From: Epinephelus fuscoguttatus | Lineage: Eukaryota > Chordata > Actinopteri > Perciformes > Serranidae | Assembly: GCF_011397635.1 (NCBI RefSeq) | Contig: NC_064765.1 | Coordinates: forward strand, 27,370,632-27,434,631 | Direction of reading: 5' to 3' | DNA length: 64,000 nt | Shown here: in pieces, positions 2-64,000 of the stretch | Layout: the number at the start of each line of letters is the position of its first letter | Numbering within the stretch: position 1 is the stretch's first letter | Translations under genes and position numbers: made by a program | Notes under the pieces: generated by a model | What the model was told of the DNA's origin: nothing | What the model saw: only the letters and a program-made list of their open reading frames with translations | The model's database searches: none

Positions 2-589
2 GCCTTTCTCCTTGCTGTCACATCAGCAAAGCGGGTTGGGGAGCTGCATGCTCTCCGTCAGTGAGTCCTGCCTGCGTTGGGGGCGGATGGTTCGTGGGTG
101 ACTCTCTGGCCGAACGTTGCGTTCCTGCCAAAGGTGCTGCCACGCACCCATCTCAACCGGCCGATTCATCTGGCTCGGTTCGACCCCCCGTCGGCCGACT
201 GTGGAGCACAGTTGTTGTGTCCTGTACGGACCCTGGCTGCTTACCTCAATGCCACTGCGCCTGTGCGACTGACAGACCAATTGTTTGTGTGCTATGGGGG
301 TCATAACAGAGGTTGTGCCCTCTCTAAACAGCGCCTGTCACATTGGATTGTGGATACCATCTCCTATGCTTACAGGGTCACTGGCCGTCCGTTGCCAGCC
401 GGGGTCAGGTGCCATTCGACGCGGGGGGTCTCCACGTCCTGGGCTGCTCTGAGGGGTGTTTCACTGGAAGACATCTGTGCTGCAGCTTCTTGGGCGTCAC
501 CTTCCACGTTCCATCGCTTGTATCGCCTCAATGTTGCTGCTCCCCACCCGTTGGGCGTGGTCCTCCGCCACAGGACTTCTGATCAGTGA
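2..589 (+). pseudogene. DIRS tyrosine recombinase, frameshifted 3' fragment
   Basis: The conceptual translation resembles the C-terminal catalytic half of DIRS tyrosine recombinases. The first conserved arginine sits in 'SAKRVGEL', the H-x-x-R box is 'CHSTRGVSTSW' and the nucleophile region is 'FHRLYRLN'. The block 'LSKQRLSHWIVDTISYAY' is also typical of fish DIRS copies. The copy is decayed: the frame starting at base 2 meets a stop at 62-64, and two one-base deletions between about 55 and 85 are needed to follow the family sequence. From about 77 the frame is open to the stop at 587-589. It was probably inactive long ago, and its N-terminus is outside the window. Confidence 0.75.
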
Positions 590-6838: not shown

Positions 6839-9800
6839 TCACTGTAAACTGTCATCACCACCGGCGGCTGAGGACTGAAGTTGAGTTTTTTCGAGTTCCT
6901 GGTGAACCTCTCTGACGGCCATGATGCGTGAGAGCATGCTCTGTAGAGTGGTGCTCTCTAATGGTTGAGAGGTGTACCAGTGGGAACTGTTGAGGTCAGA
7001 AACAGAAATTAGACAAAAAAAATTTAGAAAAATATGTAAGACTTGCATGTTGCTGTCTATAAACAGCACAGGCGGTAATATGTTTTTCTTATTTTATTTG
7101 AATTCATGCATTCTCTTGATAGTGAGGAAGAGAGGGAGACATGGAAAAGGTAAGAGAGAGAGGTGGTATGACATGTAGCAAAAGGCCTGGGACAAACTCG
7201 GACCCAAGCGGCTGCAGTGAAGACTCAGCCTTGATGGTACATGCTCTAACATTTAAGCTAGCGACGTGCTCTGGGAGGTTTTATTTAAATGTCCATTTAA
7301 TCTGGACTCTGTGTCTCTTTAACACTGGACAAGTGACTGACCTGTGAGTGTGCACATTCTGTTCAGGCTGCAGGAAAAACAGGTCAGTTCTCTTCTTCAC
7401 CGACTCAGGGCTGGTAGAGAGAAAGATGAATGAGAATAAAAAGTGTTTGTTCAGTTTCATATATGTGACTTTAAGTGCTGTCGTCTTCATCTGTTAGTTT
7501 GCCTATGTGCATGTGCATATGTCTCACCATCTGGAGAGGTAGAACTCGTAGAGTCTGACAGGACAGTGTAGAGGGTTGGCGACATTTTCCAGCATCTCCA
7601 GGTCTACCTCTTCCTCTCCCTGCTTTTTTCTCAATCGCTCTGTAAACCAGAACTCACTTATTCACTACTTGCAAACACATAATCCGTTTTGGGACAATTT
7701 ATGAAACCGGTTTTGATGTTTAGAAACAGAGTGAGTATATAAAAACATTTTTAGGTGATGTGAAGCTATTGATACCTGATATTTTGTATAGTTGTACAGC
7801 TGCACAGACACATTACTATCACTGCTACTTTAATCTTTTAAAAAAAGACATTAATGTATTATTTCAAAACACCCACCTGCATGGGGCGTGCCAGCACTGC
7901 TTCTCTGGTATCGGAGGTAGTGGACTTTGCCGGCTCGGCTGCAGGGTTTAGAGTGTAGAGTGAAGTTGGTAAAGGAGAGGCTTTGGTGCTGTGCCAGCGT
8001 GGTGAAGCCGAAGGTCTTGGTGCAAAAGAAGAGCAGCGTGTTGAGCAGCACTATGGGGGAGTAGGCGCCCAGCTGCTTACACTCCCACAGGTAGGACTCC
8101 ACAACACGGGAGGAAACAGCACCACCTTCAGGAAGAAAGAAGAAGTAGGGAAAGAGCTGAGTCAGTCAGATACTCAAAGTGCCTTAAAGGAGCTATATGT
8201 AAGAAATATAAAGCAAATAGTCATAAAATCCTCCAAATATGTCACAGAGACTAAGGAATAATGTTCATATAACATACTCATCTCACAGACAACAATAGTA
8301 CAGCCAGAATATTCGCATTTAAAAAAAAATTTACGGTCCGCAAATCATGTTTATGTTTTGAATCTGTGTTTTGGCCTGTTGCGCCACCCACCGCCGTCTA
8401 CCAGTCCCGCAGCCAGTAGAGTCTCAGCATCAGTTACGGTTACGACTGAGCTACAGCAGCACGGCAAGCAGCATTAGCAGTGTCCCGGTACATAGCATTA
8501 GCAACTGGTCCTCCTCAGCTGTATCCCGGCAGCAGCGTTAGCAGCAGAGAAGCTGGACTTGCTCGAACGGTCCGCTGGAAAACCGAAGATCAAGGACGCG
8601 GTGACGCAGCCCTGCCATGGCAGCCGCCCGTGGGCAAACAAATCAGTCTCCAGCGCGCCGCTATCCAGCAACCTTGAATCTGTAGGGGAGGGGGGGTGGA
8701 CACAACTCGCGGCAGTATTTTGAATTTGAGTGCAGTAACCATTTTGGCCACATTCTTACATACAGCGCCTTTATCCGGTTCTGGGTGCCTCAATGCCTTT
8801 CATCTCACTGCATGCTATGATTGAGAATGAAGAAATAATGGATTATTAAGAGAACTGGATTTGATGTTAATGAATATTGGCAAATAAATATTTTAAAATC
8901 AACACTACAAAATTGAAACGGTAAAATTAAACTGAGTTTTATGGTGTCAACCAGGCATAAAAACAGTTGAAATTAATTCTTAAAGATTAACCACAGTAAG
9001 GGTTGAGACAACCTGTGATATTAAAGCAGCATTAATATATTTTTTGGCCACTTGGGGGCAGCAGAACAACCTGTTAATACAACATTGAAATGTCAACAAC
9101 TTATAAAGCTGACAAGGTCAATCTGTCAGCAAAGTGTTGCCTACTTACACATCTATATAGAATTTAGCCATTGTTAATATAAGAAGATTGATTAGATTAA
9201 TCTCACTCAGTCAGAGGGATGGCAGACTCCGCCACTACCAATGAAAATGGTATGTAAAGACACAGTGGTGTAATGGCATCCTGAGCAGATTGAAGTCACT
9301 CTACATCTGTGTGTTGTTATCCAAGTTTCTCCTGTCCTGACCCACAGTGGTGGAACAGCGCCATCGCAAAAGCACAGTACACACACTCCAGTTCCTGCCA
9401 CGTTAACACCATTAGCTCTGCTAGCACTATTACTGTTGTTAGCATTTGTCACAGTCAGTACGTTTACATGGACAATTCCACTTTTAATCGGAATGAACGG
9501 CCATTCCGATTAAAAGTGGTCATGTAAATGGTCATTCCGATTGAAAATTAAATCCGATTAAAGGGGGTGGTTTATTCCGTTTGTCATTCCAAATGAAAGA
9601 GTTTTGTGTGCATGTATACACTCATTCCTCTTTGAGTTCATTCCGGTCTTTCTGCGCATGCTCGTTTCCTTGCCCTTCTGGTGCGATGACGTATATAGCG
9701 CACATAGCAACGGGCTGCATAGCAACGGGCTGAGCTAGAGCAGTCGGACTCACACTCACCGGTTTCCATTCGCCACAGCACGGTCTTCTGCCTCCCTTCT

Positions 9801-12800
9801 CCTGCTCAACAGATGAAGCATTAGCAGAACAAGGTTGTTGTCGTCCTGCTGCTTTAAGAATATCAGCAAAACACGCCCAAAAAAGGCACTAATAACAGCA
9901 TTGTCAAGCATCTTGTTATCCGGAGCGAGGACTACAGTGTTTTCTTCCGGTAAACGTAAACACGTAACATCCGCCCCACCCCCTATCCAATCAGAAACCT
10001 TCCCTGCCCCAAACCTTGCGCAGACCTGAATAAAGGCGATTGAACTGATCTCCCGTGTAAACCCTCATTCGGAATTAATATTTCCCATGTAAACTACCTG
10101 GAAACACTTTAATCCCGAATGATTTCATTCAGATTCATTTCATTCCGAATGAGAAGCCATCATGTAACCGTAGCCACTGTTAGCACTGCTAGCACCACTG
10201 GCTGCTAGCCACCTCCATTTTGAGAGCCGTGTGAAGGCAATTCCCATTCAGGCTCTGAATCAGAGATAACCTCTAAATGTTGTATTCAGCTCATTTAATA
10301 TAAATACATTAAAAAAGTTATTTCAGAAAACCCCAAGCCCCAAGGATTATGGCTTTATGTCACTGATCATACCACTAGTCTGCGGTTTCGGTTTCCAGAG
10401 TCGCAGCATCCCACTGATGTTGGTGGCAAACTGACTGTACAGCGCATCGGTAAAGATGTTCTCTATGCGGCCCTTCATGAACAGGTACTGTCCAAACAAA
10501 GGGAGACAGAAAATAAGGACTCAATAAAAAACCCAAAAAATAAATCCAGATGGACAGCAGTGACACAGTATGTGTGTGTGTACCTGCTGTATCCCCAGAC
10601 AGAGGTAGAAGATGCTGTCTGGGCTGTAGGTCTCTCCATTAGGCCGTCTTACTTCTCTGATGAAGCAGGACAGAGCAAAGCTCAGCTCAGCGGAGTCACA
10701 CTGAAGGACGTCTTCTTTAATATCCACGATATTGGCTGCAGGGGAGGAGACCATGAAACATAGTTAGTATAGAATAAAACAGGTTACAATGGGACCAATC
10801 AATAGAATCGCAGGAAGAGATATGCTAAAATAATAGTAGAATATAAGATAACTGAGGCTCACATTCTTTCTGGTGTTTGTTTCGTTGTTGGACCCAGCTC
10901 CTCCAGGCTTTAACTCCATACAGGTGGTTCAGTTTGGCGGGGGCTGGAGTCACCACTGCAGTGCGGTTCAACACGGTTCGCCTTCGACTCTGGATGGATT
11001 GAAATGCAATGAAAAGTGGGTAGTGTGGAAAATGGTCGACATGGCTAAAAGCTTGACTTTGATTAGACAATTAAATACATGTAATATTCAAGAACATCAC
11101 AACATCCAAAGACAGTGCAGTAGTGTATGTTAGAAAGATGTCAACATCCACAGATTCCTACAGCACTTGAATGCACCATGTAACTACACCAAGTGTCACC
11201 CTGCAGGAAAACAGCTTATAACTAAAGTCAGTGGAGAAAAATGTTTTAAATCAGAGGCTGATCAAATCAACCTGAGTTTACCAAAAGACAGCTGATCTAT
11301 CAGGGGAGTCATACCCGTTTTCGGCTGGAGAAAACATCCCTGGGTCTCTTCACTCCTCGCTGTGGTGCAGGTGGCTTCTGATCTAACGGTTCTGCAAAAA
11401 CAAATACAAAAGACCTGTGAGTGACTGTCAGTGTGCATGCATGTGTTGTTGAGTAGTTTTCATCTCTGCTTGTAGCAACTACATGCCATCCAGTTTTTTT
11501 TGTTTTTTTTTTTCATTTTACAGATTTATTTTTGTGTTCACTTTAAGTTATATGATGTCTCACCGGACGGGAAGTCAGTCTCCAAGTCCATCATGGGAGA
11601 GGAGGGAGGTTGATCCTCAGCACTGGTGGTAGGTGGGTCACTTGTCGTGGTGGTCTCCTCTGGCTTCGTATCAAGTTGAGGATCAGCTGACTCTGTGCTC
11701 CTCTCTGAGCTGACAGTAAGCGGCAGGTCGGCTTGTACTGCTTTTTGAGTCTCCTCATTTTCACAGCTTATGGGAGTGACCACCTCTGACTTCATGTCTC
11801 CACTGTTAGAACTACTCTGGTCTGCAAAAGACAGAGCAAACATTTGTCAAGCTTTATATGACTTAAATATATAAAAATCAGGACAGAAACTTTCCTCACC
11901 TGTGCTGGAAACAGGCCCATCTTTTTGTTTTTCTTCCTCTAACGCCAAAGGCTCTGATTGGACTGCTGCATCTATCATGTCCTTGCTCTGTGGTGGTACG
12001 ATCATGGGTACTGGAACCTGTACAATAAAAACCATGAAAAACAAATTATCATTTGATTTTCTGCAGCAAATACTCCAAAAAGTACATGAATCATTCTGGA
12101 TTCACTGGATTACTAATGTAATGGGACGTACAGGCAAAGGCATAGCCATCGGAACAGGTGTGTGCTGGGAGTACATGTTCATAGGCACTGGAATGAAGAC
12201 TGGTACTGGAACTGGCACCATTATCACCTTCACTTTCTCCTCTCCTGCTGAAGAGCTAACTGAGGGCAGAGGCTGAGCTGGAAGACAGAGGGAGGAGGAA
12301 AGATCATGAAGAAGAGACAGTCAAAAATGTTTATCAGGAGGATACGCAAGAATTTTTACATTTTTGAATTGAAACATTTAGTTGCAATTTAATTTAAAAG
12401 ATAAGATTAGACACAGACATCCTACTGTCGCACATAAAGTCATAATAAAATGTATATAAAAAGGGTAAAACTGATAATTTAGTGACAGCTTAGTATATTG
12501 AATATACTACTTTTATTAAATAAAATGTATTACGCTACTACATGCAGTCTCTATATGCAGCTGCAATTTTCTAGAATGCAGACATGACAGCAAGTGACCA
12601 AAAAACTGGGTAAGTATTGTCCTTGTTAAGGAGGGACAAAATATTTTAGTGCAGTTTTATTTGTGCTGCTTAAAGGTCACTTTATATTTATCATTGAGAT
12701 GCTCTGTCAGTCATAAATCACCGTACACCATAAATCACCATAAATATGAGACCATGGTTAAGAATACTGATAACCTCTGGTAATTTAATATGTAACAAAT

Positions 12801-15800
12801 GCACCACTCAGCTCTCTGCCAACATCTCATAATCAAATGAGTGTAGTGTGGCTAAAATGTTTCATACAGAACCTTTGTGTTGTAGCAATTTCTGATAATG
12901 TAGACACTTTTTCACAGAGCAGGTGCAACACTCCCCTGACTGAACCTGTTCAAAAGAGTGTGCACTCAGATGCATTAACAGTTTCACTTTACAGGGCATC
13001 TTTTGTTTAGGGAACACATGACCTCAGGCTTGAAAAGTAAACCTGCTATTACATCATGTTGACATTTCTGCAGATTCCAGCAGTTGCTTTACTGTCTCAA
13101 GGCAGGCGGCAGCATTTCATGTCTCTGGAAAACACTTCTGCTTGTGTCAGTGGAAAATTATCCTCATATTTATTTGACCATCATCAGCCCTGACACAGTG
13201 TCTGATTTCAGACACCTGTGGAATGATTTCCCTCTCACTAATCAACTTTTTATCTACACTTCATTTGTTTATGTATTGAATTTATTATTACTTTCAGGTC
13301 TGTTTGCATCCTCACACTGCTGTCTACAAGTAACTCAGTGTCTGCTGGGAGTTACCTTTTGTCTTTTGTTCTTGTGGCATTCATGTCTTGAGTACAGCCT
13401 GAGGATTACGGAAGCAGCTTTTGCAGCATACTACAACAAACATCTTAAAATGACTGTAGCCTTCTTTTTAAAAACAGGGTCAAATGATTTCAGGTGAGAG
13501 TTACTAAATAATCACTGCTCGATAAGTTTTATTTGGACTGATGTGTGCAACCTTAATATGTGGGCCCGTGTGAACAGTTTTACATTCACAATCTTAACAA
13601 ACTTGTGTTTTTGAGGCAGGTGAAATCTGAGAAATGTCACTCACACACACATACACCAACAAAACTTTACTCACAAATTAAATTTATTGACACATTTTTT
13701 GCATTTAACAAAACCATGACAATATTCTTTTAAACAAACAAGAGGCAGAAATGCAACATGAGTCCATGTCAGTGTTATAACGACAATGAAAAACTAAAAA
13801 CATGCAGTTAAAGTGAACTTATTAAAGCTTACAACAGACAGTAGGTTGTACAGGAAGTAAAAAAAGTTAACCATTTATGAAACGTGTAATACAGGGCTAG
13901 AAAATGTCAGCCAAGGCAAAGCTGACTCGCTTTGACAGCAGGTGGATGAACTGAAGTCAAGACTGCATCAGTAGTGAGGTACAGCAGGGAATCCAACCAT
14001 CAGCTCTTATACATCACACATTCATAATAGACATTAAAATGGTGCGCACCAGTACAAATAAGATAACTGCACATCCAAATGAATTCTGTTTTCATCTCTC
14101 AGACACATAGAGTTAATTGCAGATTTGTATCCTCATGTAATCCTGACAGCTGTATTTAAAATGATGGCGCACCAGGCAGAGAATCTCTTTTATAATGTTT
14201 ATTGAGAATGTTACACTTCATTTCCTAGTTTGGGCAGCTCGTCCTCATTTCATTATGGCAGTGACAGTGAACCCAAACTAAATGTCCTTCACCTAAGATC
14301 ATCTATCAGCTCTGACTGCCCCTTTGAGGGAAAACTGTTCATTTAGACAAGAACTTGACGGCTCTTGTCATTTCCTATGACACCTTCTTTAAGGTCATCT
14401 CCTTCACAGACCAGCAGCTGATTTTATGTAACTAACCAGCATCTTTAATTCCAGCTGAATTATGATGGGTCTTTTTGAAAGAATTCAACGTGCCCTATCT
14501 AGACTAAAGTTACATACTTTATCTACAGTGGGATGAAAATCCTGTAAAAGCAAGCCACTGTTTTACAAGAGATTCCAATAACACAAACATGATTTAAAGG
14601 TATAGTGTGTAGGATTTAGTGGCATCTAGTGGCTGAGGTTGCAGATTGAAATGCACATAATTTGAGTCAGTGTTTAGTTTGTCCATGCTGAGCTACTGTA
14701 GGAACAACATGCGCTGTGGAAGAGAACCCCTTAAATCCTACACACTAGACTTTTAATACTTACGCTCAAGTATTTTATTCAAAGTAGAAGCACATTTAGC
14801 AGCACAGTTGCCTGAATCCAGCTCCATGAACCTGCATTACTGTTGCCCTGTTGCATATACGTATGGAACAATTGACAGTGGCGTTTTTTTCATGGGCTGC
14901 ATCTGGGCAAGCAGGTAGGCACAAGTGACCCTAATAAATGTAAGGATCAGGTTACATACTGTATGACAGGTATCATTACTGCTTGTGAAACAGTGAATGA
15001 CTTTTCAGCCTGTAATGTAAACTGGTATCACATCATGATGATGTGGCGGTAGTGAAACAGAACCCTCCAGAAATAAAGTGGCAGCACAGTCCATTTATAC
15101 AACAAACACATACACAAGTAAACAAGTTAAAGAAACACTAGATTCATACATTTTAACCTTTTGACAAATGTACCATGATCAGGATCAGCTTTAATGACAC
15201 GTTAATAAACTGTGACATAGATTCAATAATGAGGTAAGATTTTTTTGTTTTTTTTTTACTAACATGTTACAGTACGGTCAGTGAAGCACTTAAGGAAGTC
15301 CCTTAACCTTGTGTAAACTGTTAGCCCATCAGTTACAGACCACTTACAGTAATACCCCCTCACAAAATAAATACGCTTTCTGGGAAGATACAGACAGCCA
15401 TGAAAAGCTGTTCTGCACAAATACTGCTATCTTTACTGGATTATAAAAATACCGAAACACCCCTGTAAGTGCATAACTTTACTGCACTACCACTTTGCGA
15501 GTACACATTCATGCAACTACTGTGAACTAATGGGTGTTCTGCTTCTGCTGTCACTAAGGTTTTGGGTTTGACTTCGACATACAAGCACAGAAAAGGAAGA
15601 GAAGGTCACTAAAGTAGTGTAGGCGTGAAGACAACTGGTTAACCCTGTAGCTGTTTGATCTTTGTCCCAGGTCAGCGCAGAAGACAACTTCTAATGCCAG
15701 CAGGTCAGGAGGCTGTGGAGAGAAAAACTCGGGTGATACACTCGACCCTCTTAAGAAGTCAGTTCAATTGACTTGGAAAAAGCAGATCACATCAGTGCAT

Positions 15801-18800
15801 CTGAATGTAATAGCATTAACAAAACACAAAATGGGGCTCCTTGAATAGGGGATACAGCTGTGGTTTAAAACTTTTAGTTTTACTATTTCAAGGGAAAATT
15901 CATCATCTTTCATGTGGATGTCCAGTGAAGCAATAAAATCCTATGTGTGTGCACTATACAGACAGAGAGCTGAGTTCAGCAGCTGCAAAATCTGTTCTTC
16001 CTTCATCCAGTGGCATCATTAGATGCACCAGTGACGTAGTCGGAAGGAGGAAGAACTACAGGTTATTTCGGCTTTGACAGGGGCATGTTCTAGATGCTGC
16101 TTAAAAGAGGACCTCCCTCTTTTTCTTTGAAAACTAGCTATGTTTCCAAAAGCAAATATGGCCTCCAAAAATAGGAGCACAGAACCTCACGCACAGAAGA
16201 TTTAATGGTACATTTTACTTTTATTTTTTATTTATAGTTTTTGGCTGACTTGGATATTCAGTCGTATTTATGTAAGCCACAGTACGCAACAGAAAAAATG
16301 CAGCAGAGTGAGGCCGGGGCTGTCGTACACAAGGATATGGCCAGCAGAGTCCTTCCAGAACCTGAGCTGCCAAGAGCCGACTGGTGGTGCCTTTGCTCAT
16401 ACTCCCCTCAAGTGCCAATAGAAACTGAATCATTCTGCTGTAATGACTTCCAGCATGGACATTTTATATTGGATGCTGTCACCCACACCAAGAGAACAGT
16501 ATAATAACGTGAGCCACCAAGTGAAAGAGCCTGCGTGTGCATTACTATGCATAAAAGTTTTACTCCTCACATGGACAGGCATTTGCTGAAGATCTTCTTC
16601 AGGGTCATGAAGATAAACTAGAAAAGACAACCTGCAGGGCCAAAGTGGCAGATGACTGCTGAGTGAGTATTTTTGTCATCTAATGCGAGTGTAAGTTACT
16701 TTGTTGAGTTGAGCCTTAGTAGTAGAGTAAATTTAAGTTGGCCTTTTATTGTGAAGGGAAAAAGCGAAAGGATTGAAGCAGTAATGTCCTGCCGCTGACA
16801 GTCTGAAAAATACAGAATGGCTGCTGTCTTGGTTCAAGCTGGCTTAGAATACGGAGCCTCCATTTTTTTTGTTACCTGCATAAGCAGGCTGCACTATGTT
16901 TTGGCTGGGTGTCTGTAGCTCACACAACGCATGCTGGTACTTGTAGGCACTGCAGGCACGGCTCCATGAGCAGGCAGACTCCGCTTTGTCGGTCAATATA
17001 GCATGCACTGAGAACATAATTGCTTCTACATTTACCATCAAACATGACTGGACATCCACATAGAGGTGGAAAATTTTCCCTTTAATGGTGTTATTATATA
17101 TTTAAAGTGTGACTACATTAGTTTTTGTTGTGTGAGTCTGAGGGCTCACCTTATGTTTCCAGTTCAGGAACTGTTTTGTAGATCAGTCTGGTGTGGTAGA
17201 GCTCAAAACAGGGCACAGGACAGAGGCTGGGCTCTCCTGAACACGTCTTACAGTAATACGATGTCTGCCTCCTCAATGTCTTGCTCTTCTGCTCACAATG
17301 CTTCATTTCTGTGTGCTCCCCCTCTTTTCTCTCCCCATCATTCTCATCATGGGAGTTTACTCCCTTGACTTCCTCGGCGTCTTCTTCCATTTTCCTCTGT
17401 GGCTCCTCATCCTCATCCATCTTCTGCTTCTTCTCCTCCTGCTGCTGATCTTCTTCCTCCTCCCTCTTCCTCTTGTGTTGTGAGCAGACCTTGCAGTCGG
17501 AGTCAGTGTCTCTCTTGCCCAGGAAATGGCGTCCGGTTAGGCGTGCTGGCACGCCATTACAGGGCTGAGTTTCTCCCTGAGGTTTCGGCGACGGCGGCAG
17601 AGACGGAGACGTAGATGTGGATGCTTCAGCAGATGACTGGTCAGGTTGCGAGGAGCTATCTAGCAGAGCTGGTGCAATTATTGAAACAGCTAGTTGTGAA
17701 CAATGAACAATTGAGTGAACCAAAAAGATGAATGAAAATGAATTAGATGGTGTGTAGCGTTGTGACAAACACCCTACAAAAGGCACACCAGCCAGACTGG
17801 ATCCTTCTATCAGCGCTACTTTAACTAGATACTACATTATCATTGTTAATGTTTGCTGTGGGTATTAGCATTGACTGATGTATATCAATTATTTTAGATT
17901 TAAATAGCGAAAAAAAGTCAACAAAATTTTAGTACCAAAACCATTTGTTTTTAAAACCAGTGAGAATGACAAAGCTTAAGCAAACTTCAATGTTATATTC
18001 TGCAAAGCATTAAGTTCAAAGTTGTTTTAGTTTCGGTGACAATTCAACTTTCAACAATTTCAATTCACCTCACCTGATTTGTGTCATAAGAAAATATTTA
18101 ATCACAGCAACTGCCTCAGAGTGAAACCTAACCCTGCACTACCATGAGCTGTTTGGATTGGTCAATAAACACAAAGAGATGTCTGGGAGAAATTTCTCCT
18201 CACATCAAGCAGGACTGAAGGTTCCATCACCATCAGAGTGTGTACAGGGATAACATACAAAATGTAAACAGTCGTGGTAGAAAAAGATTAAAATCAAATC
18301 AGATTTTAAATACTTAATGCTTGATGTTTCAAATGTCTGTAGGAACAATGTGCAGTAAGTACACTTGGTATTTGGACACTCCGTGGTGCATTTTACTGGC
18401 AGGAAGCTGCTAATGTCACACAGTCCAGATGAAATTTGCATATTTAAATCCTGCTGTACAGCTGATCTGTGTCCACTGTTAACAACATGCAACAAAGTTG
18501 AACTTATTTAAGTGATTTTTGTAGTTACCTGCTGTTTCAGTGGAAGATGTGGATATCTGGCACATGCTCTCTTGGTCCATAGTGAAGGGCCGACACAGAA
18601 CTGACTTGTTCTTCATTTGACGTCGACGGGGGACAGGCACTCGCATGGCATCAGTCTGGGTACTGGCCTGGAAACAGACATTACATAAATAAACAAATGA
18701 ACAAAAGGGAAAACAGAAGATCTCATGTAGTTCTTAATCATAAATACACTGCAAAGGACAGTGTCTTATTTCTGACCAGATCTAAGTCTAGACCCACAGT

Positions 18801-53400: not shown

Positions 53401-54714
53401 TCAGGTTCTTCGTCCACCACAGTCACGTGACTCAGAGAGATGGTGATAAAAACACTGTCACTGTTATCACCCTCACAGATGGAACAACCAGATAAAGAAC
53501 CTGTAGACTGTAATTTACACATCTCAGACAGATTGCCATCCTGGTTAAGAGACAATAAATATTGGTCAATGTGTTACTTAATGTCTATATCAGATTCATT
53601 GTAGCAGTAAACAGTATATCCCGCTTTTGATTCCAAACGCAAATCTTATCTTGTGCAATCCCTTATCAGACATGATTACTGGTGTATCAAACAGTCATGA
53701 CAGCTTTGCGAAATTCAACGTCAAGCCTTTTTTTATTTATGTGACTTGCTAATGCTGGTTAATATTAAATTTCTGTTCTAAGGAAAAGATGCGGCCAGGG
53801 TGCACCTGGCAAAAGTGAATTTCTTGTTTTGTTTAATGAATAATTGTATGCCTAAAAAAAATCAATAAACAATGAATGACAAAAAAAGTATTTTCTTGAT
53901 TGTAGATGTACAATCTTAGTAGATCACACAATTGATTGCATAAGTATAATCTCTCGATTTCTGACAGCATGATTGTATTTTTAGAACTCATCAATAAAAA
54001 CAGTGAAACTCTTACCTCTGGATGTTTCAGCTCCTCAGTTAGATAATTCAGAGTGTTCCAACCATCATAGGACCACAAGCCTTGATAGAAAGCAATGCCA
54101 ATGGAGCTGACATCAGCATTTGTTCCCTCGAAAAAGTTATCAAAGTTCTCGGTGTGTCCTTGGAAAAGCTTCACAACACCTCCCAATATGATCACTGCCA
54201 GTACCAGCAATTTTATTACCATGGTGCCCACCTGGATGGCGGTGGCCAAGCGTACACTCAGACAGTTAACTATGGCCAGCACCATGATAGCTCCTGCTGC
54301 CACCAACTTCAACACCACTTGTGGAGTCGTGCAGCCACTGTAAAAGGGTGCCACGACATATTCGGCAAAACTCAGAGCAATTCCTGTAGCACTGGCGGGC
54401 CTCATTACAATGACAAAGCTGGTGACGAACATAAATGCCACCACTTTTCCTACCGTCCGCAGAATGTAGATATATTCTGCTCCAGACTCTGGTACGACTG
54501 TGCCCAGTTCACTGTAGCAGAGACCCCCCAGCATGGCTATCAATCCACAGCAAGTCCATATGATAAAGCTGGCCCCGGGGCTGCCAATAGTAGACAGCAC
54601 ATACTGGGGGGATATGAAAATCCCAGATCCCATCATGGTTCCAGCAATGAATGATACAGCCCCTATAATCCCCACTTCCCTCTTCAGATTCAGTCTCTGT
54701 GTGTCACTCTCCAT
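43383..54714 (-). CDS. SLC7 light-chain amino-acid transporter, b0,+AT/AGT1-like (six exons)
   Basis: A twelve-TM APC-superfamily exchanger that would pair by disulfide with an SLC3 heavy chain. Exons in transcript order: 54016-54714, 44812-44945, 44115-44244, 43912-44036, 43715-43802, 43383-43613; phases agree, 468 residues. TM1 has the substrate-binding 'GSGIF' (29-33). '[13 protein letters not shown]' and '[21 protein letters not shown]' are family hallmarks. C128 in 'APFYSGC' matches the heavy-chain-linking cysteine. The C-terminus '[17 protein letters not shown]' to 'LFLEVAP' is close to SLC7A9. One 699-bp exon encodes TM1 to about TM6, unlike the many small exons of mammalian SLC7A9 and more like SLC7A13, so the orthologue is left open. 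Intron 1 (9 kb) is packed with transposons. Copies of exon 1 lie upstream (56-62.8 kb). Confidence 0.88.
44500..44750. repeat. MITE-like fragment in SLC7 intron 2
   Basis: Phrases 'GGGGAACTCCACTGATTTGA' and 'GTGGCTCCAGAGGGAGCTGTG' match a common non-autonomous fish repeat. A matching inverted right end was not identified. Confidence 0.35.
47293..49180 (+). CDS. THAP-domain protein of the P-like element (four exons, one in-frame stop)
   Basis: Exons 47293-47372, 48020-48212, 48341-48454 and 48605-49180 join in phase with GT/AG borders (321 codons). Exons 1-2 give a complete C2CH THAP DNA-binding domain: '[11 protein letters not shown]', 'FHKFPK', the invariant Trp in '[10 protein letters not shown]', 'VLCSEHF', and 'DGVIPSIF' in place of the AVPTIF box. 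Exon 3 is a Ser/Thr-rich linker. Exon 4 encodes '[18 protein letters not shown]' and '[11 protein letters not shown]...FGPL...[14 protein letters not shown]', a conserved block I associate with uncharacterised fish proteins and not with P transposase. A TAG at 48866-48868 interrupts exon 4 in an otherwise continuous frame. Function of the C-terminal block unknown. Confidence 0.6.
47861..47955. repeat. Imperfect GGAAATA-type minisatellite
   Basis: AGGAAATAGGAAGA-like units within intron 1 of the THAP gene. Confidence 0.7.
49915..50130. repeat. Three-copy 70-bp tandem repeat
   Basis: Three tandem units of about 65-72 bp, each containing CATCTCTGTGTTGT, TTTAACAC, GTTTGAAATATTTAACACAC and a TGTTAAAAAC-type end. 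Within each unit GTGTTAAA/TTTAACAC inverted words can pair. Confidence 0.8.
50268..50410. repeat. (TC)n, (GT)n and (TA)n microsatellites
   Basis: A TC run near 50268-50288, then a GT run followed by a TA run near 50348-50404, inside the P-like element. Confidence 0.9.
51180..51860 (+). mobile_element. Second THAP-associated TIR element (deletion derivative)
   Basis: Terminal inverted repeats begin CAGAGATATTGG and continue to GAGATACCCCAC on both ends with small differences. They are flanked by GGTGAAC at 51173-51179 and 51861-51867 (7 bp, or 8 bp with one mismatch). Length 681 bp. It holds a THAP first exon (51584-51657) and nothing more of a transposase. CA- ends plus THAP suggest the P superfamily, but its TIR differs from that of the 47197-50743 element, so it is a separate family. 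Confidence 0.65.
51584..51657 (+). pseudogene. Orphan THAP-domain first exon
   Basis: ATG-initiated '[19 protein letters not shown]' then 'PKEADR', with a GTAAGC donor right after. This is the N-terminal half of a THAP domain (first two Cys, 'FP' motif). No following exon with the Trp or the Cys-His pair is found before the element ends, so the gene is truncated. Confidence 0.6.
51868..54015. other. SLC7 intron 1, proximal part
   Basis: No gene recognised. A short phrase near 53307 (ACTGGGGACATGAAAATACC) resembles the start of the SLC7 exon 1 copies, but the similarity does not extend. Otherwise unremarkable AT-rich sequence. Confidence 0.4.
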
Positions 54715-55990
54715 TGTTTGAGACCTGCTGCTTCCTCAAAGGCATTCACAGTGGATACTGGACACGCACATACCCAGAACTGGCTGTAGATTAACTGCAC
54801 TGGTCAAAACAACAGATGAAAGTACCCTGGTCTTCAACAGCCACTAAACCAAGGCGTGGTGTGGCCGTTTGTCTTTGACTTTGCTCATTACTTCCAGTTG
54901 CATTCTCTTTAAAGACAATTATTTTTTCCCTTTATACACCAAAGTTTATTTGATATAAGTTTGTGTTCAAACCACTGGTAAGAACATTTTTAGGGGTCCG
55001 TGTAAACAAGTAGGTTGAATTTGCAAACCTAATGCAAGAAATCCTGAAAATACTGCTTGCAAGATTATATTGCTTGTCCTTAGTATTAACAGGGCAAGGA
55101 CAATCTTAAAATATGTTCCTGTTGATTTCAGTTCTCACAGTCTGATTATTTGGAATGGTTTGTCAGACTTGAAATATAACCCAAATGCCTGTTTTTGCTT
55201 AGGAATTTTAATGCTCCTTCTTCCTTTCAAATGCGAGAGGTCTGGTTTGGACCTCCATTTTTAGGGAAAGAAATAAATACATGTATGTGACAAATACTAA
55301 TACATAAATAATAAACAAGGAATGACTAACATATTACTTAAGGCCTCTAGTGAAAAATTAATTATAATGAATTGCCATATTATAGTACTGTAAATTCTAT
55401 GCTGATATGTTTATGACACCAGGAGATCTGCTGTTATTCATTAGTTTGTGACACATATGAAAAATACTATTCTACTGGCTCCCCTCAGAGGGATGGAGCA
55501 ATGGTTCTACTTCAACTTCCCTCTGGATGCAAAGTTCCTTACACTACCAAGACTGTGAGACCAACCACTCTGTGAGGGAAATGTTATTGTAGCCTCTGGT
55601 ATCTGTGTATCTCTGGTTAATTCTCTGCTGGCCTCACCTAATTCTACCATCCCGCTCTTGTCCACTAAAATGATATCTGGTCTGCTGTCTACCGTGTGCC
55701 TGATTCCATGTGAATGCAGCATAACACCTGCATCACTGCCAACAAAATTAAATAGAAAAGCCGGTTAAAATTAAGGTTGAGCAGCACTATGCCCGCATGG
55801 GCAAGCACAGCTTCCATGGTCAGTGTAGCAGCTTCACTTGATAATAATGGATGCACTCTGCTGCATGCATGTTGCAGCAGACTTGTCACACTGCAACCGT
55901 GTCCCATGTATCTTAGATGTAAGACATCAAGTCCCAACCTCCAGAGAGCTCATAAAAACACCTCTGAGAATGATTTGTAGCCAAAGAGTG
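54715..55990. other. Upstream region of the SLC7 gene
   Basis: Contains the 5' flank of exon 1. From about 55640 to 55990 it shares sequence with the spacer of the tandem units to the right (phrases 'CTCTTGTCCACTAAAATGATATC' shortened here, and 'GTGTCCCATGTAT'), so the repeated unit begins here. A minus-strand translation 'RHTVDSRPDIILVDKSGM' near 55640-55710 hints at an old LINE fragment. Confidence 0.4.
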
Positions 55991-56558
55991 ACTGATTAAC
56001 AGGCCGTAGTCAGCAGTGACCACCCCAGACGTTTTTCCTTGTGTTGGCCAGATAGGGCCACTGAAAATCTTGGGCTGGCACACCAAAACCAAAAGCCATA
56101 ACTGAATTTAAGGAATTTGATTTTGCTGTTAAAGTATATATAGGTTAGTTTAAAACTTTGCCAATAAATAATAGTTGTTCCCTTACCCAAATTAAGCCTA
56201 ACTTTAAAGTGTTCCTAACAAGTTTTGCCAAGACAACTAACTAACTGTCTGATTACACAAGAGGGGGCGCCACTGGAGGCAATCTTTTATCTGTACACAG
56301 TTCCTCTCCCAAGATTCTAATCACCTTACAATATATAATTCTGATATCTTACTGTGACTGGTAAATTGGTAGCCTCTGTCATTTAAACTGACCCATTCTG
56401 TAAGACTGCATTGCTTATTGCCCAAGTATATTATCTCTCAACTTTTCATTTGTCACAGTTGATCATTAGATCTTTGTAAGTTATGGTAAACCATAAAGTA
56501 ATTTAAGGAACTTGTTGAGCATACAAGGTAATTGTGTAAACAACAAACAGTGAAACTC

Positions 56559-56855
56559 TTACTCCTGGAACATAAAGGCCACCACTTGTCCTGCCGTCCG
56601 CAGAAAGTAGATAAACTCTCCTCCAGACTCTGGTATGACTGTGCCCAGTTCAGCATAGCAGAGTCCCGCCAGCATGGTTATCAACCCACAGCAAGTCCAT
56701 ATAACAAAGGTGGCCCCTGGGCTGCCACTAGCGGACATCACAAACTGGGGGGATATGAAAATCCCAGATCCTATACTGACACCAGCAATGAATGATACAG
56801 CTCCTATAATCCCCACTTCCCTCTTCAGATTGAGTCTCTGCGTGTCTCTCTCCAT
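56559..56855 (-). pseudogene. SLC7 exon 1 copy 1, internally deleted
   Basis: The ATG at 56855 opens a 98-residue frame '[18 protein letters not shown]' to 'RTAGQVVAFMFQE' and stop. It keeps TM1, 'GSGIF', TM2 and the 'ELGTVIPESGGEF' loop. A deletion of about 400 bp (with a few filler bases, TCCTGGA) removes the coding sequence from about residue 97 to the original splice donor, and the frame ends in a stop formed from the donor remnant. It could not make a transporter. Confidence 0.85.
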
Positions 56856-57987
56856 TGATTGACTGCTAGTGTCTCCGTAAGTGACTCCGTAAGTCAGTTG
56901 ATACAAGACATGTACTGCGCAATATTGTGCTGGCTGTAGATTAACAGCTTTCCACCAGGTACCTGAAATTACCCTGTCACACTTGAGCAAGGTCTGGCAA
57001 ACCTGTTTTATGATATGATATGGCTTAATTGACATGATGATGATCATAAGAACAACAAATACATAGGCTTTTCCACTCTGCTTCCGCTTTTACATCTATC
57101 TTTTTAAAAACCTTTTGCTAAGATTTTTGCAGCATTGCTTTAAGCCGGACTCAACTAATTCTACCATCCTGCTCTTGTCCACTAAAATGATATCCAGTTT
57201 GCTGTCTACCGTGTCCCTGATTCCGCACAGGCAAGCACAACTTCCATGGTCAGTGTAGCAGCTTCACTTGATTATAATGGATGCACTCTGCTGCAGGCAT
57301 GCTGCGGCAGACTTGTCACACTGCAACCGTGTCCCATGCATTTTAGACGTAAGACATCAAGTCCTAAACTCCAGGGAGCTCATAAAAGCACCTCCGAGAA
57401 TGATTTGTAGCCAAACAGTGACTGATTAAGAGGCCGTAGTCAGCAGTGACCACCCCAGACGTTTTTCCTTGTGTTGGCCAGATAGGGCCACTGAAAATCT
57501 TGGGCTGGCACACCAAAACCAAAAGCCATAACTGAATTTAAGGAATTTGATTTTGCTGTTAAAGTATATATAGGTTAGTTTAAAACTTTGCCAATAAATA
57601 ATAGTTGTTCCCTTACCCAAATTAAGCCTAACTTTAAAGTGTTCCTGACAAGTTATGCCAAGACAGCAAACTAACTGTCTGATTACACAAGAGGGAGGCC
57701 ACTGGAAGCAATCTTTTATCTGTACACAGTTCCTCTCCCAAGATTCTAATCACTTTACGATATATAATTCTGATATCTTACTGTGACTGGTAAATTGGTA
57801 GCCTCTGTCATTTAAACTGACCCATTCTGTAAGACTGCATTGCTTATTGCCCAAGTATATTATCTCTCAACTTTTCATTTGTCACAGTTGATCATTAGAT
57901 CTTTGTAATTTATGGTAAACTATAAAGTAATTTAAGGAACTTGTTGAGCATACAAGGTAACTGTGTAAACAACAAACAGTGAAACTC

Positions 57988-58284
57988 TTACTCCTGGAAC
58001 ATAAAGGCCACCACTTGTCCTGCCATCCGCAGAAAGTAGATAAACTCTCCTCCAGACTCTGGTATGACTGTGCCCAGTTCAGCATAGCAGAGTCCCGCCA
58101 GCATGGTTATCAACCCACAGCAAGTCCACATGACAAAGGTGGCCCTTGGGCTGCCACTAGCGGACATCACAAACTGGGGGGATATGAAAATCCCAGATCC
58201 TATACTGACACCAGCAATGAATGATACAGCTCCTATAATCCCCACTTCCCTCTTCAGATTGACTCTCTGCGTGTCCCTCTCCAT
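57988..58284 (-). pseudogene. SLC7 exon 1 copy 2, internally deleted
   Basis: Same deletion junction and stop as copy 1. Differs by a few substitutions (for example 'GSPRATFVMW' for 'GSPGATFVIW', 'RMAGQ' for 'RTAGQ'). The shared breakpoint shows that the deletion preceded the duplication. Confidence 0.85.
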
Positions 58285-59414
58285 TGATTGACTGCTAGTG
58301 TCTCCGTGAGTGACTCTGTAAGTCAGTGGATACAGGACATGTACTGCGCAACATTGTGCCGGCTGTAGATTAACAGCTTTCCACCAGGTACCTGAAATTA
58401 CCCTGTCACACTTGAGCAAGGTCTGGCAAACCTGTTTTATGATATGATATGGCTTAATTGACATGATGATGATCATAAGAACAACAAATACATAGGCTTT
58501 TCCACTCCGCCTCGCTTTACATCTATCTTTTTAAAAACCTTTTGCTAAGATTTTTGCAGCATTGCTTAAAGCCGGACTCAACTAATTCTACCATCCTGCT
58601 CTTGTCCACTAAAATGATATCCAGTTTGCTGTCTACCGTGTCCCTGATTCCGCACAGGCAAGCACAACTTCCATGGTCAGTGTAGCAGCTTCACTTGATT
58701 ATAATGGATGCACTCTGCTGCAGGCATGCTGCGGCAGACTTGTCACACTGCAACCGTGTCCCATGCATTTTAGACGTAAGACATCACGTCCTAAACTCCA
58801 GGGAGCTCATAAAAGCACCTCCGAGAATGATTTGTAGCCAAACAGTGACTGATTAAGAGGCCGTAGTCAGCAGTGACCACCCCAGACGTTTTTCCTTGTG
58901 TTGGCCAGATAGGGCCACTGAAAATCTTGGGCTGGCACACCAAAACCAAAAGCCATAACTGAATTTAAGGAATTTGATTTTGCTGTTAAAGTATATATAG
59001 GTTAGTTTAAAACTTTGCCAATAAATAATAGTTGTTCCCTTACCCAAATTAAGCCTAACTTTAAAGTGTTCCTGACAAGTTATGCCAAGACAGCAAACTA
59101 ACTGTCTGATTACACAAGAGGGAGGCCACTGGAAGCAATCTTTTATCTGTACACAGTTCCTCTCCCAAGATTCTAATCACTTTACGATATATAATTCTGA
59201 TATCTTACTGTGACTGGTAAATTGGTAGCCTCTGTCATTTAAACTGACCCATTCTGTAAGACTGCATTGCTTATTGCCCAAGTATATTATCTCTCAACTT
59301 TTCATTTGTCACAGTTGATCATTAGATCTTTGTAATTTATGGTAAACTATAAAGTAATTTAAGGAACTTGTTGAGCATACAAGGTAACTGTGTAAACAAC
59401 AAACAGTGAAACTC

Positions 59415-59709
59415 TTACTCCTGGAACATAAAGGCCACCACTTGTCCTGCCATCCGCAGAATGTAGATAAACTCTCCTCCAGACTCTGGTATGACTGTGC
59501 CCAGTTCAGCATAGCAGAGTCCCGCCAGCATGGTTATCAACCCACAGCAAGTCCACATGACAAAGGTGGCCCTTGGGCTGCCACTAGCGGACATCACAAA
59601 CTGGGGATATGAAAATCCCAGATCCTATACTGACACCAGCAATGAATGATACAGCTCCTATAATCCCCACTTCCCTCTTCAGATTGACTCTCTGCGTGTC
59701 CCTCTCCAT
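59415..59709 (-). pseudogene. SLC7 exon 1 copy 3, deleted and frameshifted
   Basis: Nearly identical to copy 2 but with two Gs missing from the run after CT near 59602 (four Gs against six), which shifts the frame after 'GSGIFISP'. It carries the same internal deletion. Confidence 0.85.
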
Positions 59710-60845
59710 TGATTGACTGCTAGTGTCTCCGTGAGTGACTCTGTAAGTCAGTGGATACAGGACATGTACTGCGCAACATTGTGCCGGCTGTAGATTAACA
59801 GCTTTCCACCAGGTACCTGAAATTACCCTGTCACACTTGAGCAAGGTCTGGCAAACCTGTTTTATGATATGATATGGCTTAATTGACATGATGATGATCA
59901 TAAGAACAACAAATACATAGGCTTTTCCACTCCGCTTCCGCTTTTACATCTATCTTTTTAAAAACCTTTTGCTAAGATTTTTGCAGCATTGCTTAAAGCC
60001 GGACTCAACTAATTCTACCATCCTGCTCTTGTCCACTAAAATGATATCCAGTTTGCTGTCTACCGTGTCCCTGATTCCGCACAGGCAAGCACAGCTTCCA
60101 TGGTCAGTGTAGCAGCTTCACTTGATTATAATGGATGCACTCTGCTGCAGGCATGCTGCGGCAGACTTGTCACACTGCAACTGTGTCCCGTGTAATTTAG
60201 ACGTAAGACATCACGTCCTAAACTCCAGGGAGCTCATAAAAGCACTTCCGAGAATGATTTGTAGCCAAATAGTGACTGATTAACAGGCCGTAGTCAGCAG
60301 TGACCACCCCAGACATTTTTCCTTGTGTTGGCCAGATAGGGCCACTGAAAATCTTGGGCTGGCACACCAAAACCAAAAGCCATAACTGAATTTAAGGAAT
60401 TTGATTTTGCTGTTAAAGTATATATAGGTTAGTTTAAAACTTTGCCAATAAATAATAGTTGTTCCCTCGCCCAAATTAAGCCTAACTTTAAAGTGTTCCT
60501 GACAAGCTATGCCAAGACAACTAACTAACTGTCTGATTACACAAGAGGGGGCGCCACTGGAGGCAATCTTTTATCTGTACACAGTTCCTCTCCCAAGATT
60601 CTAATCACCTTACAATATATAATTCTGGTATCTTACTGTGACTGGTAAATTGGTAGCCTCTGTCATTTAAACTGACCCATTCTGTAAGACTGCATTGCTT
60701 ATTGCCCAAGTATATTATCTCTCAACTTTTCATTTGTCACAGTTGATCATTAGATCTTTGTAATTTATGGTAAACCATAAAGTAATTTAAGGAACTTGTT
60801 GACCACACAAGGTAATTGTGTAAACAACAAACAGTGAAACTCTTA

Positions 60846-61543
60846 CCTCTGGATGTTTCAGCTCCTCGGTTAGATAATTCAGTGTTCCACCCACTATAGG
60901 ACCACAAGCCTTGATAGAAAGCAATGCCAATGGAGCTGACATCAGTATTTGTTCCCTCAAAAGCGTTATCAAAGTTCTCGGTGTGACCTTGGAAAAGCTT
61001 CACAACACCTCCCAATGTGATCACTGTCAGTGCCAGTACTTTGACAACCAGGGTAACCATCTGGATGGTGGTAGCCAAGCGTACACTCAGACAGTTAACT
61101 ATAGTCAGCACGATGATAGCTCCTGCTGCCACCAACTTCAACACCAGTTGTGGAGGGCTACAGCCACTGTAAAAAGGGGCCAAGATGCATTCAGCAAAAT
61201 TCAGGGCAATTCCTGTTCCAGCGGCAGGCTTCATAACAATGACAAAGCTGATGACAAACATAAAGGCCACCACTTTTCCTACCGTCTGCAGAATGTAGAT
61301 AAACTCTCCTCCAGACTCTGGTATGACTGTGCCCAGTTCAGCATAGCAGAGTCCCGCCAGCATGGTTATCAACCCACAGCAAGTCCATATAACAAAGGTG
61401 GCCCCTGGGCTGCCACTAGCGGACATCACAAACTGGGGAGATATGAAAATCCCAGATCCTATACTGACACCAGCAATGAATGATACAGCTCCTATAATCC
61501 CCACTTCCCTCGTCAGATTTAGTCTCTGTGTGTCTCTCTCCAT
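60846..61543 (-). pseudogene. SLC7 exon 1 copy 4, near full length, frameshifted
   Basis: Retains the whole exon, 'MERDTQRLNL' through the TM6 region, with 'APFYSGC' and the GTAAGAG donor at its end. A 2-bp deletion after 'GLWSYSGWNT' (near 60882) shifts the last 12 codons, so splicing into downstream exons would be out of frame. It is the closest relative of the functional exon at 54016-54714 and the likely parent of the deleted copies. Confidence 0.8.
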
Positions 61544-61945
61544 TGTTTGACTGCTAGTGTCTCCGTAAGTCAGTGGATACAGGACATGTACTGCGCAATA
61601 TTGTGCTGGCTGTAGATTAACAGCTGTCCACCAGGTACCTGAAATTACCCTGTCACACTTGAGCAAGGTCTGGCAAACCTATTTTTATGATATGATATGG
61701 CTTGATTGACATGATGATGATCATAAGAACAACAAATACATAGGCTTTTCTGCTCTAAATAGGCTTTTACATCTATCTTTTTAAAAACCTTTTGCTAAGA
61801 TTTTCGCAGAATTGCTTTAAGCCGGACTCAACTAATTCTACCATCCTGCTCTTGTCCACTAAAATGATATCCAGTTTGCTGTCTACCGTGTCCCTGATTC
61901 CGCACAGGCAAGCACAGCTTCCATGGTCAGTGTAGCAACTTCACT

Positions 61946-62835: not shown

Positions 62836-64000
62836 AGTAGTAGTAGTAGTAGTAGTTTTATTCAGTCATGACAACACCAAACATTGTACACAGTATTGAC
62901 ATTTCACACAAAATCACAAAATCAAGAATCATGTGTTGAATATTGACTGAAAAGGCATAGGCAGAAGCAGACTGCTTATAAGAGCCTATCCTATATTATC
63001 AACTTTTTAGCCTACCAACCTCCAAAAAACAAAGAAACCACAACAACAGATAATTAATCGCACTTATAAGCTTCAAAAATAGCTTTACAAACCATTTTCT
63101 TAAAAACCAAAAGAGAATGACATGTTTTTAAATTTATGTTGGCATCATTCCAGAATTTAACGCCAATAATGGAGACCCATCTCCTTTTCATACCTTTTTT
63201 AGCTTTTTGTACAGTAAACTTGCAAGCACCTCTAAGATTATAAGGACTGTCCTGAATTGAAAAGAACCTCTGTATTGAGTCAGGGAGCATTTTTGATTTT
63301 GCTCTAAACATAATTTGCATTATTTTATAATAAAACAGATCATTAAATTTCATAACATGGGAATTTAGAAAAAGTATTTCTGTGTGAGCATAATAATCAG
63401 CCTTATTGATAATACGTATAACTCGTTTTTGCAGTTTTATTATTGAATTTATGGTGGTTTTAAAGGTGGATCCCCACAATTCCACACAGTAAGATATATA
63501 GGGAACAATCAATGAGTAGTAGATCAAATGTAAAGCCATGGAATTCAATACATTTCTGGATTTATACAGGATTGCAAGTGATTTTGAGATTTCCCTTTAA
63601 TATATTCAATGTGTTGTTTCCATGTTAGCTTTTGATCAATGACAACCCCAAGGAATTTAGTCTCAGAAACTCTTTCGATGTCAACATTACAGATTTTTAA
63701 TTTAACATTACAATCACTTTCATTTGGATTCCCAAAAACCATAAATTTTGTTTTCTTAATATTTAAAGATAATTTATTGACATCAAACCAAGTCTTGAGA
63801 TATTCCAGCTCCATTTCTACACAACACAAAAGTTCCTTTAAATTCTTACCAGAGCAAAACAAATTGGTATCATCTGCAAATATTACATATCTAAAAATCT
63901 GTTACATTGCAGATGTCATTGATATAAAGAATGAACAGTATTGGACCAATCACTGATCCTTGTGGTACGCCACATGTAATCTTTCTCAGTGCTGACATAG
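62836..64000 (-). mobile_element. Non-LTR retrotransposon (LINE), 3' part
   Basis: Read on the minus strand from the window edge: the reverse-transcriptase blocks '[20 protein letters not shown]' and 'FADDTNLFCSG', then 'NKLSLNIKKTKFMVFG', 'ETKFLGVVIDQKLTWKQHI', a 'SLIVPYISYCVELWG' block, and a (CTA)n microsatellite tail at 62836-62857. This is the layout of jockey-superfamily (CR1/L2/Rex1-like) LINEs. The 5' portion lies outside the window. It is inserted in SLC7 exon-1 copy 5. Confidence 0.85.
63054..64000 (-). pseudogene. LINE reverse transcriptase C-terminal region, frameshifted
   Basis: Three frame segments cover the RT end: about 63900-64000, 63545-63890 and 63054-63548. Frameshifts are needed between '[11 protein letters not shown]' and 'IFADDT' and again near 63545. 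The catalytic FADD box is intact near 63870. The stop is at 63054, followed by about 200 bp of 3' UTR and the trinucleotide tail. Confidence 0.75.

Follow-up and report, generated by a model that had tools for sequence, protein, structure and literature searches.

A piggyBac-derived zinc-domain frame in a ZMYM intron of Epinephelus fuscoguttatus as a candidate alternative last exon

Results

The window, a 64,000-nt stretch of the Epinephelus fuscoguttatus genome, carries on its minus strand a gene of the ZMYM2/3/4 family, as judged from its zf-FCS match and its DUF3504 end; its numbering as member 4 is that of the original prediction. Ten pieces of the gene were scanned for zf-FCS, giving one ORF above the cut-off and two below it. 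An open frame of 226 codons sits within a 6.25-kb intron of this gene, between the exons that end at 18529 and start at 12277 (Table 1), and had been put forward as part of an alternative last exon that would fuse zmym4 to piggyBac sequence. The ordinary splice route is present alongside, in the form of acceptor 12277 and the DUF3504 exon. Elsewhere in the window, tandem amino-acid permease ORFs (53833–61678, minus strand), four of them with a similar start, form a local gene cluster, and the two that were scanned match PF13520 AA_permease_2. Two further long open frames, at 65–589 (plus strand) and 63054–63596 (minus strand), have by eye the look of mobile-element remnants and gave no Pfam match at E 0.001.

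Table 1. Features of the ZMYM intron and its flanking exons, in window coordinates
Feature	Position	Strand	Evidence
ZMYM exon upstream of the insert ("exon 18" of the original prediction), donor CAG/GTAACT at 18529, phase 1	18529..18667	-	acceptor 8.1 bits, donor 8.5 bits; similar peptide in three paralogues
Open frame, 226 codons, stop TAA at 17153–17151	17151..17831	-	translation of window
Best in-phase acceptor CTGGTGTGCCTTTTGTAG, first exon base 17773	17774..17791	-	8.8 bits, rank 4 of 415 intron AGs
Two acceptors named in the original prediction, first exon bases 17689 and 17668	17669..17707	-	in phase; 2.2 and 1.3 bits, ranks 60 and 87 of 415
Zinc domain, first half: RLTGRHF, x10 after His, then CxxC	17484..17543	-	motif and position; layout compared with PMC8086355
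Spacer of 77 residues separating the Cys pairs; about 65 form an additional acidic insert	17253..17483	-	translation
Zinc domain, second half: CxxC-x6-C-x3-C-x4-H	17193..17252	-	PF13842, 26.5 bits for last 42 residues
TAA, then G/GTGAGC; near-consensus donor AAG/GTGAGC, last exon base 17150	17144..17153	-	11.1 bits, rank 2 of 408 intron GTs; exon end one base past stop
Old DNA element, non-autonomous; its 37-nt inverted ends are 73% complementary	15890..17085	.	inverted repeat; starts 65 nt after stop
Best acceptor of the intron, candidate 3′UTR exon start, first base 15712	15713..15730	-	10.3 bits, rank 1 of 415; use presumed
AATAAA (13688–13683) with GT-rich stretch downstream, candidate poly(A) site	13636..13688	-	sequence; not covered by any scored repeat match (40 of 1039 candidates)
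Next ordinary ZMYM exon, start; acceptor 12277, phase compatible	12228..12277	-	12.6 bits; peptide common to paralogues; 3′ end probably further on
First exon of the Crypton-derived DUF3504 part, missing from the proposed short form	7878..8117	-	PF12012, 96 bits

The frame had been described as a same-strand intron frame that ends in the piggyBac Cys-rich zinc domain, and this description holds. The tail of the frame (178 residues) matches Pfam PF13842 (zf-Tnp_2) with 26.7 bits and an E-value of 8.5e-6 against a cut-off of 24, and its 226 codons are open, as had also been stated, from 17831 down to the TAA. Since the final 42 residues by themselves give 26.5 bits, the match is not driven by the acidic stretch that precedes them. 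PF13842 is the zinc finger found at the C-terminus of piggyBac-type transposases, and long piggyBac-like frames of the same genome end in it.

Eight zinc ligands can be assigned in the tail, in the arrangement H-x10-CxxC-x77-CxxC-x6-C-x3-C-x4-H, provided that a long insert is allowed. The two Cys pairs are separated by 77 residues, compared with 12–13 in this genome's other piggyBac tails, so that about 65 residues are extra; these are acidic and Glu-rich, and they split the zinc domain in two. The first half contains RLTGRHF, which we take to be a piggyBac motif. Analyzed alone, this half matched nothing in Pfam or the PDB, and its assignment thus rests on motif and position. In the MAFFT alignment, a Cys further along the tail is paired with the first Cys pair in the other copies, a parse that costs one ligand; we prefer the upstream CxxC as the first pair because its spacing and the upstream His fit. 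In a PDB search with the last 42 residues, the piggyBat transposase 9c0f appeared at E 1.6, behind UBR-type fingers at 0.33–0.95. A UBR finger was considered and not adopted (zf-UBR, 16.2 bits against a cut-off of 25.2). With the ligand set as assigned, the tail would form a two-zinc piggyBac cysteine-rich domain.

According to PMC8086355, the cysteine-rich domain of PiggyMac has a variant layout (upstream His, CxxC, CxxC, C, CxxxH), and a similar arrangement occurs in PgmL, Tpb2, PGBD2–4 and two active transposases. The window tail shares with the PiggyMac/PgmL/Tpb2 and PGBD2–4 domains the ligand order His, CxxC, CxxC, Cys, Cys, His, whereas its last spacing is C-x4-H, as in this genome's other tails, instead of the CxxxH of PiggyMac (PMC8086355). 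It differs from the PiggyMac-type proteins further in the 77 residues between its Cys pairs, in the lack of a transposase core and in having a ZMYM protein as its carrier.

An open run of this length is rarely obtained by chance. In first-order Markov resamplings of the intron, a run of at least 226 codons was seen in 1 of 1000 trials, the mean longest run being 103 codons, and resampling with the composition of the ORF itself gave an equally long run in 0 of 5000. The GC fraction per 60-nt step is 0.22–0.52 over 18528–17689 and 0.42–0.60 over 17688–17149. The tail has a codon score of 41.3 bits, compared with a maximum of −33.4 among 4,562 other same-strand intron windows of the same length, although the score charges 5 bits per stop and the contrast partly repeats the openness of the frame. 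The acidic segment supplies 31.1 of the 41.3 bits, and Glu codons give most of the rest of the contrast with the other windows; the zinc part alone scores −1.7. The 27–28 codons directly 3′ of acceptor 17773 have an intron-like, non-coding look (GC3 0.25; codon score −16.2 for 27 codons). A chance origin is unlikely, and we conclude that the intron holds what appears to be a piggyBac-derived coding stretch with plausible exon boundaries.

Sequences resembling exons 18 and 19 were found in all three paralogous regions examined (C17:13.61, C13:35.36 and C17:13.55 Mb), where 378, 366 and 270 nt separate the matched exon ends, compared with 6.25 kb in the window. The three paralogue stretches contained no tail-like sequence (best E 0.9); the multi-exon DUF3504 loci at C1:26.26 and C7:29.88 Mb lie outside this comparison. 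The short paralogue introns and the lack of a tail-like sequence indicate that none of the three paralogues compared carries the insertion. A NOPS-domain gene, which we take to be sfpq-like from features of its sequence, is found at most about 70 kb from the C17:13.6 copy, and this proximity suggests that the ZMYM copy in the window arose as a zmym4 duplicate. For zebrafish, both ZMYM4a and ZMYM4b are listed (PMC3212892).

The tail is single-copy in the 1.05-Gb genome. A DNA search returned the tail itself and three matches of 64–76 nt (79–82% identity) at the start of the acidic part. A protein search returned the tail and three weak matches (45% over 58 residues at E 0.002, and two at E about 0.1); these were rejected as relatives, a matching Cys/His pattern being absent on reading. 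Counting the window, PF13842 matches the genome 18 times; 13 of these matches are above the cut-off by score and one more with its neighbours. The other PF13842 tails read differ in type from the window tail, L020 and L022 yielding no tail. One of the piggyBac-like loci, L019 (C6:21003045–21006182), has a 676-aa open frame whose tail is unlike those of the other piggyBac copies read, and could be a domesticated PGBD gene. The back-translated RLTGRHF pattern matched the genome 15 times, against 20 for a reversed control; the window's is the one hit with a CxxC downstream in a frame that stays open, whereas at L073 the CxxC comes after a stop. Among other collections, viral_contigs gave 10 pattern matches and genome_contigs 109, none of which was confirmed, plasmids gave none, as fish DNA would be no more than stray in these sets, and the PDB gave no relatives of use. 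The lack of any other family copy by DNA or protein, together with the lone RLTGRHF–CxxC frame, indicates that the piece is old or was never amplified.

Searches for the remainder of a transposon were likewise negative. When 11 piggyBac ORFs from the same genome were compared with the whole window by tblastn, no transposase core was detected below E 0.15, and the DDE_Tnp_1_7 catalytic core had no Pfam match in the four other, longer intron ORFs scanned. The 879 nt that precede the tail occur nowhere else in the genome. The intron has many TTAA sites, and none of the 14 inverted-repeat pairs listed in it was recognized as piggyBac ends; nor is there a recognizable piggyBac end in the 65 nt between the stop and the neighbouring mobile element.

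This element (15890–17085) has at least 81 matches including itself (40 of 319 candidates scored), and the ten best non-self matches are 66–76% identical. If the element family expanded once, a pairwise identity of ∼70% corresponds to ∼0.19 substitutions per site in each copy, which gives a rough clock. The lack of other copies of the tail, the missing core and the absence of a recognizable piggyBac end in the 65 nt before the element suggest that the piggyBac piece may be at least as old as the element. We simulated neutral decay starting from today's sequence, with an assumed 0.1 indels per substitution, and scored a sequence as kept when it was free of stops and frameshifts and retained the eight ligands. 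Frame and ligands were kept in 18.5% of runs at 0.02 substitutions per site, 1.55% at 0.05 and 0.045% at 0.10, and in 0 of 20,000 at each of 0.15, 0.19 and 0.25. Frameshifts cause much of this loss: with substitutions alone at 0.19, 2.7% of sequences remain without a stop and 2.5% keep the ligands.

These data bear on the possibility that the frame is a neutral relic, that is, a 3′ piggyBac fragment in an intron that is still open through youth or luck and from which no protein is made. Such insertions do happen, as the other piggyBac elements with long open frames in this genome illustrate, the intron resamplings did produce an open run of this length once in 1000, and the codon score of the zinc part is neutral. 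A recent arrival is nevertheless opposed by the lack of a similar copy, of a transposase core in the sequence scanned and of a repeated upstream flank. In the simulated decay, moreover, frame and ligands hardly ever survive together once 0.10 substitutions per site are reached. Good splice sites also flank the frame. We consider a neutral relic unlikely, while granting it a real share of the probability.

For the alternative last exon, the splice sites around the frame were scored with a simple frequency matrix and ranked among the 415 AGs and 408 GTs of the intron. As a reference we used 13 acceptors chosen by hand from the 25 exons of a gene model (median 11.2 bits, minimum 7.4). The model, a simple DP model with human codon usage and general splice frequencies and without terminal exons, set a donor within the tail (17297) and probably misplaced the end of the next ordinary exon, and was therefore used only for exon starts and scores. 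The original prediction named two AG acceptors that fit the phase-1 donor of exon 18. Both, at 17689 and 17668, are indeed in phase, but they are weak (2.2 and 1.3 bits) and 17773 is the better site. Between 17831 and 17640, nine AGs are in phase with donor 18529, including these three and one at 17659 (3.7 bits); the remaining five score below 0.

The near-consensus donor that directly follows the stop was absent from the originally predicted model. Three outcomes may follow from donor 17150: a terminal exon with a 3′UTR intron to 15712, an unspliced 3′ end, or a decay-causing cassette. By the 50-nt rule, a stop close to the last exon junction escapes nonsense-mediated decay, and since splicing from 17150 to 15712 would place the stop one base before the last junction, no decay would be expected in the first case. 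The AATAAA at 13688–13683 that had been said to follow is present and has a GT-rich stretch downstream, the context for which it was picked; it lies 3.46 kb from the stop, and several AATAAA/ATTAAA motifs are closer, for example at 17086, 16750, 16232, 14779 and 14203. Within the putative 3′UTR exon lies a short inverted-repeat element (14594–14756), ∼58 nt of which, at one end, are 87–96% identical in many dispersed copies. The strongest donor of the intron is a different one, CAGGTGAGG (CAG/GTGAGG) at 18074 on the minus strand (12.2 bits, rank 1 of 408), with an acceptor upstream at 18336 (7.4 bits). The stretch 18336–18074, when joined to exon 18, meets a stop at the second full codon.

The third outcome would make the frame a regulatory cassette, an exon from 17773 or nearby to 17150 that is included between exon 18 and the next ordinary exon and whose stop sends the transcript to nonsense-mediated decay, so that the protein end is irrelevant. 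The strong donor immediately past the stop and the presence of ordinary downstream exons are consistent with such a cassette, as is the rule that decay is triggered when several exon junctions lie downstream of a stop. A cassette of this kind would, however, leave the survival of eight zinc ligands and of a 168-codon frame without a reason, and a well-formed poly(A) site and the strongest acceptor of the intron (15712) intervene before the next ordinary exon. We regard it as quite improbable. It is more improbable still that the tail is the last exon of a separate nested gene, transcribed from a promoter of its own and with a first exon located either in the intron or outside it: the second strong donor CAGGTGAGG at 18074 and the unique 879 nt upstream of the tail would suit such a gene, but no domain was found in the four other intron ORFs scanned, and the frame has no start codon before the zinc domain, its first ATG falling inside the acidic insert.

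Discussion

The reading that we favour is that the frame belongs to an alternative last exon, which would give a ZMYM form with a piggyBac zinc tail; we judge it to be evenly balanced between right and wrong. One fish ZMYM copy would have taken up the 3′ part of a piggyBac transposase gene into an intron, most likely by exon trapping of the transposase 3′ end as in CSB-PGBD3, after which the catalytic part would have been lost and the zinc domain retained. Donor 18529 would be spliced to an acceptor ahead of the captured stretch, most likely 17773 or else 17689, 17668 or 17659, and translation would end at the TAA at 17153–17151. Beyond the stop, the transcript would either use donor 17150 to reach a UTR exon near 15712 or continue unspliced, with cleavage near 13665. 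The resulting short protein would consist of the upstream-encoded ZMYM part and a piggyBac zinc domain with a long acidic loop, in place of the Crypton-derived DUF3504 end. The zinc domain would most likely serve as a chromatin or DNA contact module, and chromatin contact is our preferred guess because of the PiggyMac-like ligand order and the acidic loop. The splicing, 3′ end, translation and function of this alternative end, and its maintenance by selection, would all be read from sequence features.

Several lines of evidence argue for the alternative end. The zf-Tnp_2 match is above the curated cut-off, the eight ligands are in order and the frame exceeds what chance gives. An in-phase acceptor ranks fourth of 415, a donor one base past the stop ranks second of 408, and a poly(A) signal is well placed. 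The codon score of the tail is above that of all other windows, the tail is single-copy and its simulated neutral survival at 0.19 substitutions per site is near zero. Counting against it are the intron-like codons after 17773 and a codon score that stems mostly from the acidic segment, with −1.7 for the zinc part; a domain split by ∼65 residues, whose first half has no match and from which the MAFFT parse loses a ligand; and the 3.46 kb between stop and poly(A) site, the indel assumption of the simulation and the indirect dating of the piece.

The original prediction held that the fusion arose in just the way of the primate CSB-PGBD3. The parallel is a partial one: it extends to strand, phase, acceptor and poly(A) signal, but here no catalytic core was found in the sequence scanned, nor any repeated copies. 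As described in PMC2268245 and PMC3459987, CSB-PGBD3 is likewise a same-strand intronic piggyBac sequence that is in frame with an upstream donor and has its own acceptor and poly(A) signal. Its product joins an N-terminal host part to a piggyBac end, as is proposed here. It differs in comprising a whole transposase, in its TTAA and inverted ends, in its many dispersed MER85 relatives and in having been proven by mRNA and protein (PMC2268245, PMC3459987). In the window only the C-terminal zinc domain is found, with no relatives and no recognized ends.

The host gene itself belongs to a family of transposon descent. The ZMYM2/3/4 genes derive from a domesticated Crypton and, like the window gene, combine zf-FCS fingers with a DUF3504 end (PMC3212892). 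The window gene would differ from them in having an added end from a second, unrelated transposon, a stretch that is absent in the three paralogue introns examined. That one fish ZMYM gene may encode two proteins whose ends come from two transposons, one the Crypton end and the other a stand-alone piggyBac zinc domain without a catalytic core, is a bolder claim that we put forward tentatively, judging it possible but on the doubtful side. No zmym4-piggyBac isoform was found in the open-licence literature searched, and such an isoform may be new; vertebrate transposase captures have reportedly been surveyed by Cosby et al. in 2021.

Most described transposase captures, to our knowledge, bring in a DNA-binding domain or a whole transposase domain. 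If the present reading is true, a host gene can capture the piggyBac cysteine-rich domain on its own, and this domain is useful without the rest of the transposase. In the T. ni enzyme this domain contacts DNA, which it binds as a dimer (PMC7351741), whereas in ciliates it contacts histone H3, the PiggyMac domain showing weak binding to the H3 tail and none to DNA (PMC8086355). A gene family that itself stems from a Crypton would then have gained an end from another transposon as well, and through the short form ZMYM complexes would acquire a new module for reading chromatin or DNA.
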